Positions 3,509 through 22,173 of a stretch of DNA of 22,173 nt are shown here, one piece after another. The notes under the pieces are model-generated. The model did no database searches and was not told the origin of the DNA. It saw only the letters and a list, made by a program, of their open reading frames with translations. Location of the stretch: positions 1-22,173 of the IMG/VR virus record IMGVR_UViG_3300049491_000392. One strand, 5' to 3'. Position numbers and translations under genes: made by a program. How positions within the stretch are numbered: the first letter of the stretch is position 1; each line of letters starts with the position of its first letter. This stretch comes from a virus.

Positions 3509-3796
3509 CTAGCCGCCGGTGAACTTGTCGATCAGGGCGCCGAAGGTGCCGCCGGCCGCTGCCAGGGCGCCCATGACGACGAAGCGCCACTTCTCCAAGG
3601 CGCGGAGCCTGCCCTCGATGTCGCTGCCGGAGGTAGTGGAGTGCTTCTCCAGGACGGCAATGCGGGCATCATGGTCGATGCTCTCGAGCTTGCGAATGCG
3701 GGACTCGTGGTCGGCTCCTTGTGAGAGGACGCCATCGAGCTTGGTTTCGATACGTGCGAGCGTGACTACTACCGCCTCGGTTACGTTCTCTGGCAT
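3509..3796 (-). CDS. Small coiled-coil, single-TM membrane protein; holin or XhlA-like candidate
   Basis: 95 residues. Residues 5-65 are amphipathic with heptad spacing (VTLARIETKLDGVL; SRIRKLESIDHDARIAVLEK), ending in RLRALEKW. Residues about 70-88 form one membrane segment (FVVMGALAAAGGTFGALI), with the short C-tail DKFTGG. This plan, a soluble coiled coil plus one C-terminal helix, is that of XhlA-type proteins and some phage holin-like proteins. Its start ATG shares one base with the stop of the S74 fibre gene (TGATG), so translation is probably coupled, and the amidase gene begins 8 bases after its stop. Position directly before the endolysin supports a lysis role: membrane permeabilisation or anchoring of a partner. 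A structural tail role is not excluded. One TM segment is fewer than in most class I and II holins. Confidence 0.65.
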   Translation of the reverse strand: MPENVTEAVVVTLARIETKLDGVLSQGADHESRIRKLESIDHDARIAVLEKHSTTSGSDIEGRLRALEKWRFVVMGALAAAGGTFGALIDKFTGG

Positions 3797-5049
3797 CAGA
3801 CCCCCAGCTCCCCTTCGATGAGGGAGACGCGAGTCGACATGTCGTCGACCAGACCGGTCAGGTGTTCGATGTCCGCCTGCTGACGCTTGACCACGTCGAG
3901 CAGAGCGACGCTGAGCAGGTCGTACCGGATGCTGTCGATCTCGCCCTCGTGGCGGATGACGATCTCCGGGACCAGCTCGTTGACTTCCTCTGCGATCAAG
4001 CCGTACTCGTCGTTCGGGGTGTCGTCGCCCTTGCGGTCGTAGACCCTGGGCTCAAGCGCCAGCACCTTGTCGGGGTCGACCGAGTATGGCCGGACGTTCT
4101 GCTTGTACCTGATGCTCGAGGTGTTCCGGCAGAAGTCGTGGTTGCCGTCGACCCACACCGCATACCAGCTGGAGCCGGCGGGCGTGTAGGAGTGGGGGCG
4201 GTCGGAGCCATTGGCCTTGTCGACCCCCCTGGTGACGTTCGCCCCGGTGTGGACGTGGGCGGGCAGGGCGTGTGTGTGGCTTGTCGCCGCGTAGCTGTGG
4301 GTGTGCGCGTCGGGCGGGAACGAGCTGGGCTTGCCGGTGATGCTCACCCAGTCGTGCACGTGCGAAGACGGTGTAAACGAGCTGGGCTTGCCGGTGATGG
4401 CGTTCCAGTCGTGCCCGTGCGTCGAGGGGGTGAAGGTGCTGGGCTTGTCCGTGATGGCAGCCCAGGCGGCCGAGCCGCCGAGACTGACCCAGGAGCTGCC
4501 GTCGAACCACTCCCACCCACTCGAAGAGGTGTTGTAGCCGAGCTGGCTCCTGCGGGGGGCGGTCGGCTTGGTGTCGTTGCTCCAGATGCCCACCCGCGAG
4601 CCGACGAAGGGGCGGTAGTCCGCGATGAGGGCGTTCGAGATCGCCACCGCACTGGGGGCGACGGTGACGGTGGCCAACGGCAGCTCATAGAGCCCCGTAT
4701 CGGTTTGCGTCAGCGCCGGAGCGCCCGAGCCGGGGGTGCCGGTCAGGACGAGGGGGGCGATCGAGTTGGTCGACGGATCCATTCGTAGGACGACGCGGTC
4801 GATGCGAGTCGACGGGCTGGCGGCGGCGATAGTCACGGTCTGGTCCGCGGTCATCTGGATGGCGTGGCCACGAAGCACCGCGACGCCGGCCGCGACAGTG
4901 AGGACCATGCTCGAGCCGGTGCCGGTCACCTTGAAGCCAGCGCCACCGAAGGCGTCGGCCACGCCGGAGTCCTGTAGCTCGCGGAATAGCTTGCTGTACT
5001 GCGACTCCGTGACGGTCACGCCGTCGAACGGATAGGCGAAGATTGCCAC
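3796..5049 (-). CDS. Tail fibre protein with HxH repeats and C-terminal peptidase S74 chaperone
   Basis: 417 residues, GTG start with AGGAGG seven bases upstream. Residues 1-150 resemble the N-terminal attachment part of actinophage fibres (YPFDGVTVTESQYSKLF, then a beta-rich block). Residues 196-252 hold three 19-residue repeats of the form W..IT.KPS.F.P..H.HDW, followed by a His-rich stretch; HxH pairs occur at 211/213, 230/232, 249/251, 258/260 and 265/267. In T4 gp37 such pairs coordinate iron along a trimeric needle. The C-terminal 110 residues are an S74 intramolecular chaperone: RNTSSIRYKQNVRPY gives a Ser311/Lys316 dyad at the expected spacing, then VLALEPRVYDRK, YGLIAEEVNELVPEIV and a terminal coiled coil. 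In this family the chaperone trimerises the fibre and then cuts itself off, here likely next to S311 or S312. The gene lies 29 bases after the Gp37-like gene. Confidence 0.9.
   Translation of the reverse strand: MAIFAYPFDGVTVTESQYSKLFRELQDSGVADAFGGAGFKVTGTGSSMVLTVAAGVAVLRGHAIQMTADQTVTIAAASPSTRIDRVVLRMDPSTNSIAPLVLTGTPGSGAPALTQTDTGLYELPLATVTVAPSAVAISNALIADYRPFVGSRVGIWSNDTKPTAPRRSQLGYNTSSSGWEWFDGSSWVSLGGSAAWAAITDKPSTFTPSTHGHDWNAITGKPSSFTPSSHVHDWVSITGKPSSFPPDAHTHSYAATSHTHALPAHVHTGANVTRGVDKANGSDRPHSYTPAGSSWYAVWVDGNHDFCRNTSSIRYKQNVRPYSVDPDKVLALEPRVYDRKGDDTPNDEYGLIAEEVNELVPEIVIRHEGEIDSIRYDLLSVALLDVVKRQQADIEHLTGLVDDMSTRVSLIEGELGV
4294..4464 (-). repeat. Three 57-bp in-frame tandem repeats in the tail fibre gene
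   Basis: Three consecutive 57-base units encode residues 196-214, 215-233 and 234-252 of the fibre. Each carries the Lys-Pro-Ser turn and an H-x-H pair. The copies have diverged at the DNA level but keep the protein pattern, so they look maintained as structural repeats. Copy number could change by recombination and alter fibre length. Confidence 0.85.
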
Positions 5050-18626: not shown

Positions 18627-20273
18627 TTACGTGAAGTAGCCGCGACCGGTGCGCTGCTTGCGCTCAGGGACACGGGTGCGGACGTCGTGCAGCGCCTGAT
18701 GCGCGAGCATGAGGGCGGCGTAGAGGTCGACCTTGCGAGGCGACTCGCGGGACTCCTTGCCGAAGCTGACGCCGTAGTTGTTTACACGGCGCCGGGCGTT
18801 GAGGATGTGCCGGCGGAGTCGACGGTCGCCGTTGTTGCGGACCTTGCCGTCGAGGATGGACTGGAGCAGTCGCTCGTGGGCCAGCGTGCTGCGCTGGAGC
18901 GAAGACCGCATATCCCAAGCGATGGCGTGGGAGACGCTGGCCTTGGCGTCCAACTGTCCGCGGTACTGCTCCGCCCAGTCATCGATGTAGCTCTCCCAGA
19001 GAGCAACGTCGGCGTAGAAGGCGCGCACGTTGTAGAGCCGGAACGCCTCGTGTACCGCTCCGTCGACCTTGGCCTTGTTGACCTGCCATCCGACGCCGGC
19101 CGGCCCCTCGGGGCAAGCCTCATGGAGCAGCACGAACGCCGTCTGGTCGGAGACCCGAATGGCCACCAGGCCGGTGTCGTCGTCCGTCTTGCCGCCGTCG
19201 AAGCCCATGACGATCTCATCGCCGGGCTTGAGGTCGGTTTCGTCGGTGTTGTCGTCCCAGTTGGCCGTGGTGTAGAGAGCGTCCTCGTCGGCGACGATCT
19301 GATTGAGCCACATCCGCCGGCTGCGCGAGGCGGGGATGGTGACGTCCAGGACCGACATCACGATGGCGTCGACATTCAGCCACACTGCATCGCCCCGGAT
19401 CTTCGGGACGACGATGTGCAAGCCCTCGGGCGTGAGCGGCGTGGACGGATGGGCCTCGATGGAGTCGTACAGCATGCCGACATCGGCAGCTCGACCCTCG
19501 AGCACCTTCTCGTACGCTTCGCGCATGCGCTCGGCGACACTGTCTTCGCCGGGGAGGTAGGCGTTAGTGATGGCCAGGTAGCGCGAGTCCATCTTGGTGA
19601 CGTTGCCGTCGATGGTCTCATGCATCTTGTGGCCCTGATTGCCGAGCACCCAGTGATGGGTCTCGTTCAGTAGGGTGAACGTGGTCCGCTTGCCCTCGAT
19701 GGCGCGGTAGGAGCTAGTCACGGCCTCGAGCCGGACGCGGCCACCACGGGCGCGGATCAGTTCTGCGCCCTGGGCGATGTCGTAGGCGGCCTCGAACTCG
19801 CGGGAGATCAGAGCCGGCATCAGCGCCATGGTGTTGCGCGTCTGATCTTGGGAGACGGCGGCGACCTGAACCCAGGCGGAGGGATGGGCGCCGCCAATCG
19901 GGGTGCCGTTCTCATCGAAGTGTGAGAAGCGACTTGGCCCAACCAGCTCAACGAGGCACATGACTGCGCCCATCGGGTCCTTGCCCCACCCCTTTAGCCG
20001 CTGGAGGACGCCCTTGCGGTAGACGAAGCGACCCTGCCCGTCGACTGCGTACCACCAGAGGAGGAAGCGCAGCTGCTCCATGGTGAAGCGCCAGGGTTTC
20101 GGATTGTCGTCGGTACTGTCCTCGGCCCGGAGCCACTCGGAGCACCAGCCGGCTATCTGCCAGCCGAGCGTCCGCTCAGGCAGGTCCCAAGAGTCGTTTA
20201 CACGCCTCCAGGTAGGTCCGAAGAACGTAATGGGGAGGGCGTCGATCTCCGCCGGGGGAAGTGCGTCGATGAT
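18627..20273 (-). CDS. terL: Terminase large subunit; real start lies upstream of the first ATG
   Basis: The ATPase and nuclease that drives DNA into the capsid. Numbered from the in-frame ATG at 20081: Walker A-like LKGWGKDPMGA (30-40), Walker B TLLNE (136-140) and RNase H-fold acidic residues D295 (GFDGGKTD), D358 (FYADVALWE) and D452 (SPRKVDLYAALML). The frame stays open upstream to a TGA at 20279-20277. I translated this stretch as IDALPPAEIDALPITFFGPT, then WRRVNDSWDLPERTLGWQIA, then a Trp-rich run to PWRFT. This is the usual N-terminal region of actinophage terminases, so it is coding. It contains no ATG, GTG or TTG. GAGGGG at 20285-20280 lies six bases before an ATC at 20273, which I use as the provisional start (548 residues). 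Frameshift or base error are the alternatives. Confidence 0.9.
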   Translation of the reverse strand: MIDALPPAEIDALPITFFGPTWRRVNDSWDLPERTLGWQIAGWCSEWLRAEDSTDDNPKPWRFTMEQLRFLLWWYAVDGQGRFVYRKGVLQRLKGWGKDPMGAVMCLVELVGPSRFSHFDENGTPIGGAHPSAWVQVAAVSQDQTRNTMALMPALISREFEAAYDIAQGAELIRARGGRVRLEAVTSSYRAIEGKRTTFTLLNETHHWVLGNQGHKMHETIDGNVTKMDSRYLAITNAYLPGEDSVAERMREAYEKVLEGRAADVGMLYDSIEAHPSTPLTPEGLHIVVPKIRGDAVWLNVDAIVMSVLDVTIPASRSRRMWLNQIVADEDALYTTANWDDNTDETDLKPGDEIVMGFDGGKTDDDTGLVAIRVSDQTAFVLLHEACPEGPAGVGWQVNKAKVDGAVHEAFRLYNVRAFYADVALWESYIDDWAEQYRGQLDAKASVSHAIAWDMRSSLQRSTLAHERLLQSILDGKVRNNGDRRLRRHILNARRRVNNYGVSFGKESRESPRKVDLYAALMLAHQALHDVRTRVPERKQRTGRGYFT

Positions 20274-20285
20274 GCATCACCCCTC
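20268..20285 (-). promoter_or_regulatory. Ribosome binding site and unusual start region of the large terminase gene
   Basis: The minus strand carries GAGGGG (20285-20280), then TGATGC, then two ATC codons at 20273 and 20270. The ATG at 20277 is only two bases from the Shine-Dalgarno and is out of frame with the terminase: its own frame gives a 33-residue Arg/Pro-rich peptide before a stop. Spacing to the first ATC is six bases, which is near optimal. The site lies 10 bases after the small terminase stop. Confidence 0.5.
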
Positions 20286-20295
20286 GGTTGATCGA

Positions 20296-20724
20296 TCAGG
20301 CCAACAGCTCCTTGCGGTAGGACTCGATGGCGGTTACCGAGGCCGACTTGGCCCCAGTCACTGGCTCGTCCAGCTCGATCCGCACCCGGCGCCGCTGGCC
20401 CTCAGTGAGGAGCAGGTCGCCCAGGCCGGCCATGACCGTCTGCAGTAGCTGTGCGGACCGTCGGGCCTGCAACTTGTAGTTCGACAGGTCGTCGCACAGG
20501 GAGAACAGGATGGCGATGTCGCTCTGCTGGTAGAAGTCCGCCTGCCCCGACTCTTGGGCCGAGCGCCACACGAAGTCGGCGATGGGGTGCCAGGCGGGGT
20601 CGCCCTCGGGCCAGCTGACTGGCCGGGCAGTGCCCCTGGTGACAGGCACCTGCTCCTTGCCCTTCCGGGCTCGGGGGCGGGCGAGTGCGGACTCGCGCTG
20701 GGGGATGGGTCCTCGAGCGCCCAT
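20296..20724 (-). CDS. terS: Terminase small subunit
   Basis: 142 residues. The ATG at 20724 has AGGAGG five bases upstream. The frame is open to 21003, but that part is a shadow of the peptidase gene. The start MGARGPIPQRESALARPRAR is the familiar basic N-terminus of actinophage small terminases. WPEGDPAWHPIADFVWRSAQ, DFYQQSDIAILFSLCDDLSN and helical QARRSAQLLQTVMAGLGDLL make up the DNA-binding and oligomerisation helices. The C-terminal end (VRIELDEPVTGAKSASVTAI) is typical of the part that contacts the large subunit. Rings of this protein recognise the packaging site. It begins 14 bases after the NlpC/P60 gene stop. Confidence 0.9.
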   Translation of the reverse strand: MGARGPIPQRESALARPRARKGKEQVPVTRGTARPVSWPEGDPAWHPIADFVWRSAQESGQADFYQQSDIAILFSLCDDLSNYKLQARRSAQLLQTVMAGLGDLLLTEGQRRRVRIELDEPVTGAKSASVTAIESYRKELLA

Positions 20725-20738
20725 GGCGACCTCCTGGG

Positions 20739-21470
20739 TCAGAGCTTGGGGTGACGCCCGTACCTGACGGGCTCGGTGTGCCAGATGGCGTCCTCGCCGA
20801 TGCGAGTGCCGCGCTTCTTGGCGTTGAACATGTAGCCGGGGCGGCTGTAGATGCCCACGTGGTGGGGTTGGCCGGCGCCGATGAAGACCAGGTCGCCGGG
20901 GGCCGGGCTGCGCACCTGGTTGCAGTAGTCGAACTGGTCCCAGCTGACCCGCGGCAGGCTCAGGCCGAGCTTGCCGTAGACGTACTGGGTGTAGCCCGAG
21001 CAATCCATGCCGGAGAGGCTCTCGCCGCCCCAGACGTACGGGATGCCGAACAGGCTTCGGGCGACGACCAAGAGCCGCTGACGGGTAGTGCCGCCCTTGG
21101 GGGCGGGCTGGGCCGCTCGAGGCGAGCTGGTGGCGCGAGGTTTGGGTGTTGAGGTCTTGGCCGGCGAGGGAGCCGCCAATGGCTTATCGGAGGCCGCCTG
21201 GGCCTCGGCGCGGTCGTCGGTCAGTGAAACGCGCACGGTATCGCGCGAAGCACGCACGGCTTCCTGACGGTCAATCAACAGGCCGGCAGAGAGGTCGTCG
21301 GCGGAAGCATCGCCAGGGACAGACCTGGTAACGATGGCCGCAACGCCACTGAGGGCGGCGGCGGAGAAGATGGTGCTGAACAGCCTGCGTCGACTGACTG
21401 GCGGGTCTTCGGCGCGATGCTTCGGCTGGCGGCGGGGAATGATCTGGGTCTCGTCGTCATCTCGAATCAC
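20739..21470 (-). CDS. Exported NlpC/P60 peptidoglycan peptidase with Tat-like signal
   Basis: 243 residues from a GTG at 21470 with AAAGG eight bases upstream; the frame upstream to 21551 is low complexity and has a poorer context. Residues 26-57 look like a Tat signal peptide: SRRRLF, a hydrophobic core (STIFSAAALSGVAAIVT) and a DASA cleavage site. A charged helical part and a Pro/Ala/Ser/Thr linker (100-127) lead to the NlpC/P60 domain at about 128-235. Catalytic Cys157 lies in SGMDCSGYTQYVY and His204 in PHHVGIYS; the third polar position appears to be Asn216 (MFNAKK), which the family tolerates. GIPYVWGGESL and SPAPGDLVFI are diagnostic. Such enzymes cut the peptide stem between D-Glu and the next residue. 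It could be a second lysin, a wall remodeller or a captured host gene. Confidence 0.85.
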   Translation of the reverse strand: MIRDDDETQIIPRRQPKHRAEDPPVSRRRLFSTIFSAAALSGVAAIVTRSVPGDASADDLSAGLLIDRQEAVRASRDTVRVSLTDDRAEAQAASDKPLAAPSPAKTSTPKPRATSSPRAAQPAPKGGTTRQRLLVVARSLFGIPYVWGGESLSGMDCSGYTQYVYGKLGLSLPRVSWDQFDYCNQVRSPAPGDLVFIGAGQPHHVGIYSRPGYMFNAKKRGTRIGEDAIWHTEPVRYGRHPKL

Positions 21471-21589
21471 GCAACGTACCTTTCGTAGAACGATGGGGCA
21501 CCCCGGGGGCGAAGGGAGAGGAGGAGAACCTCCGCCCGCACCGGGGGCCATTGGCGGGAGGACTGGAGCGCAGCCCTTAATTCCCGCCC

Positions 21590-21913
21590 TCAGCGCTCAA
21601 TGAGACCGGGGTGGGTCTCAGAGCGCCGAAACTTGGCGTTGTTACGCCGTCGTTGCGCCAGGAGCGCAGCGTTTCCCTCACGGGAGGATTTCTGCCGGTG
21701 ATGAAACCCACAGAGCGATGTAAGGTTGGACTCCTTATGGTCATCGCCGGCAGTGACGTGGTCTACATCCGTGGCTGGATCAGGGCATCGTTCTCTGGTT
21801 TCAGGGTGGGAGAACGTGCAGCGGTATCCATCGCGGCGCAGGATGCGGGACCGAATTGCATCCCAGTTCGGTGGTAGGCGAGAGCGCCTGTTCGAGCCCG
21901 ACCAGTTAGGCAT
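21590..21913 (-). CDS. HNH endonuclease
   Basis: 107 residues, ATG at 21913 with a modest GGTGAG site. The core is NWDAIRSRILRRDGYRCTFS, then DVDHVTAGDDHKESNLTSLC and GFHHRQKSSREG. It shows the beta-beta-alpha metal motif with D51-H52, N63 and H72, and structural cysteines at 32, 43 and 68. The ends are basic. Small HNH proteins beside the terminase genes are widespread in HK97-like phages, where some are needed with the terminase to cut at cos. Here only the NlpC/P60 gene separates it from the small terminase, so a packaging role is more likely than a homing one. A 119-base gap follows, with short GC-rich inverted repeats but no clear terminator. Confidence 0.92.
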   Translation of the reverse strand: MPNWSGSNRRSRLPPNWDAIRSRILRRDGYRCTFSHPETRERCPDPATDVDHVTAGDDHKESNLTSLCGFHHRQKSSREGNAALLAQRRRNNAKFRRSETHPGLIER

Positions 21914-21996
21914 GGGCTCACCACCGCTGGAACAAGGTGGCCCCGACGACGTGTGCGGTGCTTCCGCGTGCCGACCCGGGGCGGTCTATTGGCCTG

Positions 21997-22027
21997 CTAA
22001 GGCTTAGGGCTTAGTACTAAGCCTTAG
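21997..22027. repeat. Large inverted repeat with nested 16-bp perfect palindrome
   Basis: Arms CTAAGGCTTAG (21997-22007) and CTAAGCCTTAG (22017-22027) are exact reverse complements separated by 9 bases. An overlapping perfect palindrome, GGCTTAGTACTAAGCC, lies at 22008-22023. Only one of the two foldings can form at a time. The centre AGTACT is the same as in the 29-bp array next to it. It lies 84 bases upstream of the HNH start, so it may be an operator, a cos-like or terminase-binding element, or a terminator for rightward transcription. Confidence 0.75.
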
Positions 22028-22053
22028 GGCGATATGTTAGTGCAGAATGAATC

Positions 22054-22158
22054 TATCCTCTATCTAAGTACTATAGAGACTTTATCCTCTATCTAAGTAC
22101 TATAGAGACTTTATCCTCTATCTAAGTACTATAGAGACTTTATCCTCTATCTAAGTAC
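22054..22158. repeat. Array of 29-bp direct repeats (3.6 copies), AT-rich
   Basis: Units begin at 22054, 22083, 22112 and 22141. The first three are identical over 29 bases and the fourth matches for 18 bases before diverging. There are no spacers. Each unit holds arms CTCTAT and ATAGAG around CTAAGTACT, so it is partly two-fold symmetric and resembles an operator or iteron. The unit is 31% GC in a GC-rich window. The array continues close to the window end, so flanking sequence is unknown. Confidence 0.9.
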
Positions 22159-22173
22159 GTAGTAACCTTAGAT

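Follow-up and report, generated by a model that had tools for sequence, protein, structure and literature searches.

The window analyzed here is the entire linear IMG/VR record IMGVR_UViG_3300049491_000392 (22173 bp), and it carries on its minus strand a late operon that begins with an HNH endonuclease gene (21590-21913) and continues through an NlpC/P60 gene (20739-21551), the terminase small subunit gene (TerS, Terminase_7; stretch scanned 20296-20793) and the terminase large subunit gene (TerL, 18627-20081) to the portal, head maturation protease, capsid, tape measure, tail and amidase genes. TerL was closest to the proteins of the Streptomyces Arquatrovirinae (up to 71.5% identity) and to those of actinobacterial prophages, with 73% identity for Saccharothrix and 71% for Lentzea and Paractinoplanes. 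HNH was up to 61% identical to the protein of phage R4 and its relatives and 68.6% identical to that of a Saccharothrix prophage; neither HNH alone nor a pattern scan of IMG/VR with the NlpC/P60 protein identified a close relative. It should be noted that homology between the TerL frame and its relatives continues in the upstream direction past the first standard start at 20081 (20050-20340, minus strand) and no in-frame ATG, GTG or TTG was listed in that stretch, which suggests that the start is unusual or that the record is flawed. Because HNH is the first gene of the operon, the tandem array described below lies in the non-coding 5' leader, of which the record holds 260 nt (21914-22173, minus strand). 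There is good support for the array being part of the late-operon leader. It occupies the place directly upstream of HNH-TerS-TerL at which leaders of the R4-like, Arquatrovirinae type are found. The initial annotation was right to place it ahead of the genes for packaging and late functions, and this proved to be the important part of the description, since relatives have a conserved leader there. Where the relatives are complete, roughly 640-1040 bp separate the left end of the record from HNH, mostly with one or two small genes in that interval, and the non-coding stretch before HNH shows a dip in GC.

The array occupies positions 22054-22158 (minus strand). Tandem Repeats Finder (TRF) reported a period of 29, 3.6 copies and 100% matches with no indels, and an independent script found three identical units followed by a partial unit of 18 bases, all of which agrees with the initial annotation. 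A chance origin is excluded for an exact 3.6-copy array of such length. The contrast in composition that had been noted was also evident, as GC was 31% in the array compared to 65.2% in the record; the lowest-GC 105-bp windows of the record were those of the array region (0.305), and the next lowest before position 21900 had 0.533. Each unit can form a predicted hairpin with 6-bp arms and a 9-nt loop. The units had been described as symmetric around AGTACT, and the AGTACT palindrome is indeed there, but the symmetry does not have a single shared center, as a second dyad (CTCTAT-N9-ATAGAG) is centered about 1.5 bp from it. AGTACT occurs five times in the window: three times in the array, once elsewhere, and once in a feature that was absent from the initial annotation, a perfect 16-bp palindrome GGCTTAGTACTAAGCC (22008-22023) with the same core as the array. 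This palindrome is the center of an inverted repeat with 11-bp arms that match at 100% (21997-22027, minus strand). Some 9-mers of the palindrome region, AAGGCTTAG among them, recur in the leaders of L033, L034 and L043 and were not found in the six other leaders compared. Only 15 bases of the record (22159-22173, no strand assigned) lie beyond the array before the contig edge, and the upstream part of the leader is missing. The array may therefore be truncated, and its full length and true copy number are uncertain, as copy numbers are wherever an assembly breaks at a repeat.

The left-end leader of the Streptomyces Arquatrovirinae (R4, Lika-, Cam-, Caelum- and Janusvirus, a group that we take to be cluster BD) has in common with that of the window the gene order leader-HNH-...-TerS-TerL, a GC dip, direct and inverted repeats and a structured RNA element. 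It differs in that the unit sequence is not common to both, and the Crp-like and promoter stretch of the window is off the contig. In the relatives, which comprise these Streptomyces phages and actinobacterial prophages, the order of elements was the same in phages and prophages: a Crp-like site (TGTGA-N6-TCACA), a promoter-like TATA element at near-fixed spacing, a lineage-specific stretch rich in hairpins and repeats, the structured RNA, and HNH.

Of these elements the window holds the stretch of hairpins and repeats and the structured RNA, and the first two would be located past the end of its contig. For the structured RNA, a covariance model built from 19 sequences, with the window excluded, matched the minus strand of the window at 21937-21985 with 27.2 bits and E 7.4e-5, and the element there consists of P1, GU, P2, a hairpin and AC. 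The window thus has the structured RNA that is characteristic of R4-like late-operon leaders. The stem-junction just before HNH is shared by 22 aligned leaders (alignment A1), for which RNAalifold predicted 19 pairs, 14 of them changed on both sides; in the named structure 96.1% of the cells pair, a value reached by none of 500 shuffles and compared to 33-50% in slid controls. With a cutoff of E<0.05 on the operon strand, 11 of 62 further sources had the element upstream of HNH, as did 30 of 65 in a second set that includes some other copies of the training phages. A wider alignment (A6), in which 22 sequences from many hosts were used and the window was included, gave an 11-pair stem with pairing in 97.5% of cells and 8 pairs changed on both sides, and G-T before P2 and A-C before the partner strand of P2 were invariant. 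In L019 the element lies at 582-643. No Rfam 15 family scored above its gathering threshold in window positions 21500-22173 or in seven relatives, except for a tRNA in L005. With its strong covariation, the element is a candidate new RNA family, and it may be guessed that it gates late expression. The Crp-like site, the RNA element and the array were not reported in the literature searched for such phages (titles and the openings of abstracts, with few subscription journals), and since most subscription journals were outside that search this is weak evidence of novelty; the conserved folded RNA next to the array appears to be undescribed. Separately, in some Streptomyces prophages the RNA model R2 instead matched the opposite strand upstream of the leader (L047 3604-3653, L048 3094-3142 and L042 3620-3665, all minus strand).

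The upstream elements were characterized in the relatives. Among 142 leaders (126 non-redundant) and 336 control windows, a Crp-like site with no more than one mismatch was present in 56 of the 126 non-redundant leaders (25 perfect, 31 with one mismatch) and in none of the controls, and the remaining 70 leaders had 2-5 mismatches, which is the control level. When whole records were searched, each of the eight complete phage records had a leader site with no more than one mismatch, and three of them had one more elsewhere, whereas every perfect site was in the leader. Additionally, the pattern AAGTGTGA-N6-TCACA with one mismatch allowed matched in 10 of 12 records and in the leader only; the whole records of D29 and Alvy had no match. 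The sites lie, for example, at 426-441 in L019 and at 427-442 in L195. When 52 non-redundant leaders were searched for motifs over the 75 bp that follow the site, CCTATTTATAAGTGTAAG was obtained, and in all but one of them (51 of 52) this promoter-like element started 25-35 bp past the site. If TATAAG is the -10 hexamer, the center of the Crp-like site would be near -60, as is the Crp center of class I Crp promoters. A late promoter of phage phiC31 is described in older literature. Sites such as TGTGACCACGGTCACA in the relatives fit the sequence GTG(N)6GNCAC that S. coelicolor Crp is reported to bind, according to a source that cites Gao 2012 for it (PMC10033298). The putative sites differ from those of that Streptomyces Crp regulon in that they sit in phage leaders, and the window does not include the stretch in question. 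Judged by sequence, Crp may bind the phage-leader sites. The sites with 0-1 mismatch in relatives are located 177-365 nt upstream of HNH and the contig of the window reaches 260 nt upstream; no Crp-like site with fewer than two mismatches was found in the window, whose contig stops before the Crp-like and promoter positions. It ends before or near the place expected for the promoter element, and neither a sigma-70 promoter nor a terminator was found by scans around the array. The array was also considered as a multiplied promoter. Its best score against the matrix from the 52 leaders was not above background (5.8 bits, versus 12.4 for the best chance match in the record), so that this idea is not supported.

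Between the promoter-like element and the RNA element, the leaders are strongly folded. Of 44 stretches tried, L035 had no site and was left out, and among the other 43 the folding z score relative to shuffles was below -2 in 39 and below -3 in 28, compared to 4 and 1 of 32 control stretches. The middle segment of the window had a z score of -2.7 and is hairpin-rich in the manner of R4-like leaders. Neither of two clade alignments showed covariation in the mid-leader hairpins (A4 had it in 0 of 20 pairs, and no pair was predicted for A5), so that the support for this folding is purely thermodynamic. A closing-stem test gave a mean longest pairing of 8.5 versus 6.8 for shuffles, with 18 of 56 clearly above, which is suggestive only. 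The type of repeat varied by lineage: GTAAG-type repeats occur in most genera and AAGTAC-type repeats in R4, Likavirus, Speedwell and the window, with both types in the R4 leader. TRF detected seven arrays in 6 of 57 leaders (0.50/kb) and 58 arrays outside (0.13/kb). Strong arrays were seen in the window (3.6 copies of a 29-bp unit), in the Haloactinopolyspora prophage L053 (4.2 copies, also of 29 bp) and in Izzy (2.8 copies of 47 bp); they are in the same place and their units are unrelated, which fits the recent expansion that had been suggested from the identity of the copies.

Of several readings the most likely, with a probability of about one in two, is that the array represents the variable hairpin segment of the late-operon leader in the form specific to this lineage and acts through RNA hairpins. 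By homology, a promoter would lie just beyond the contig end, with a Crp-like activator site some 60 bp before its probable start, and the missing part of the leader probably carries both. Transcription would then pass through the hairpin-rich segment, which here consists of tandem 29-base units, and the transcript would continue through the conserved structured RNA into HNH and the rest of the operon. We infer that the array is transcribed and that it acts as RNA hairpins, which may slow, process or stabilize the leader RNA, with the sequence and copy number of the units free to change between lineages.

The main rivals to the RNA-hairpin reading are a cluster of operators and a near-neutral duplication. 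As operators, the units would be bound by a phage or host regulator at the palindromic AAGTACT-type core of each unit, with cooperative repression or activation of late transcription. Of the roles proposed in the initial annotation this is the most plausible, though we consider it rather improbable. The AGTACT palindromes are in register, the separate perfect palindrome nearby has the same core, and AAGTAC is enriched over shuffles in the leaders of R4, Speedwell, Izzy and the window; in R4 it is also enriched in the leader (5) compared to the rest of the genome (33). However, other genera have GTAAG-type repeats and several leaders lack AAGTAC, the palindrome does not recur in the rest of the fragment, and no cognate regulator was identified in it. 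Sites of the stoperator type were not enriched in the window either. The stoperators of L5, like the array units, are repeated short sites in phage intergenic DNA, but they are asymmetric 13-mers spread over the genome as described in PMC5712189. The two matches to GGTGGMTGTCAAG in the window, each with two mismatches, are at chance level and none is in the array.

The second rival, a near-neutral tandem duplication (or in part an assembly product at the edge of the contig) in a leader tolerant of insertions, is an unlikely account of the array. The perfect identity of the copies, the position at the contig edge and the unrelated units of Izzy and L053 are all compatible with it. So is the outcome of the search for the unit that had been proposed in the initial annotation, as two exact unit fragments (a 21-mer and a 17-mer) were not found in the IMG/VR collection. 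Against it, leaders as a class are strongly folded, and the density of arrays in leaders is about four times that elsewhere, although the 6 of 57 leaders on which that ratio depends is a small number.

The remaining proposed roles did not find support. A terminase recognition site (cosB or pac) would suit an array upstream of the HNH, TerS and TerL genes, and HNH next to terminase is a part of the packaging machinery in other phages. In complete relatives, however, the left end is at the distance from HNH given above and has a conserved terminal block of different sequence, the leader elements look transcriptional, and the repeats change between genera with closely related TerL, all of which makes this role very improbable. 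Replication iterons or a partition site, of which AT-rich direct repeats are typical, can be dismissed almost entirely, as no replication or partition gene was among the fragment proteins scanned and the helicase and primase genes annotated in R4 are near 27-30 kb, far from the leader.

The RNA-hairpin reading can be compared with transcription data from related phages. In Rhodococcus phage WC1 the region nc_1 is reported to rank first among all features by mapped reads at 30, 60 and 120 min and to be inactive at 5 min (PMC10986025). The region lies between WC1_1 (123-374) and WC1_2 (718-885), and it resembles the R4-like leaders as a left-end intergenic RNA that has many hairpins and stands before an HNH-like frame. 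As in some of the window's relatives, it has a perfect Crp-like site (TGTGAAGCTCATCACA at 427, 0 mismatches). It differs from the window in that no 29-bp array is mentioned in the accessible parts of that report (PMC10986025). In BobbyDazzler (L194), which is near-identical to WC1, an HNH-like frame begins at about 688 after the leader, and the RNA model R2 had no match in this leader. This shows that what is probably a homologous leader is a late transcript in WC1; it does not extend to the array of the window. WC1 itself (L195) appears to have an unannotated HNH-like frame on the plus strand at about 688-970, opposite WC1_2, which was found in the near-identical L194. A left-end late start comparable to the one proposed here is described for the mycobacteriophages D29 and L5, with late transcription in D29 starting about 230 bp from the left end (PMC5712189). 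Neither a Crp-like site nor the RNA element was found in the left-end stretch of D29.

A wider and more tentative reading, which we think somewhat doubtful, is that many actinophages with R4-like packaging have a single late promoter that would be activated by a host Crp-type protein from about -60, with hairpin arrays, in many cases a gating RNA, and a link to host cAMP or nutrients. Its scope would extend from Streptomyces to Rhodococcus phages and to prophages of Saccharothrix, Lentzea and Kribbella. If it is true, virion production would be tied to the cAMP or nutrient state of the host. The late transcription start in L5 and D29 is called not well understood in one account (PMC5712189), and leader elements of this kind would link the late switch to a global regulator of the host. 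The Crp-like site, the TATA element and the RNA element are precise places for tests in related phages for which laboratory strains of Streptomyces and Rhodococcus serve as hosts. The array shows that the middle of the leader has been rebuilt repeatedly and thereby which part is free to vary, and the larger interest is in the conserved parts of the leader around it. A second tandem repeat of the window, imperfect and with a period of 57 bp, was observed at 4319-4456 within a gene with a Peptidase_S74 domain (3796-5049), and the tail protein gene of R4 also carries a 57-bp repeat.
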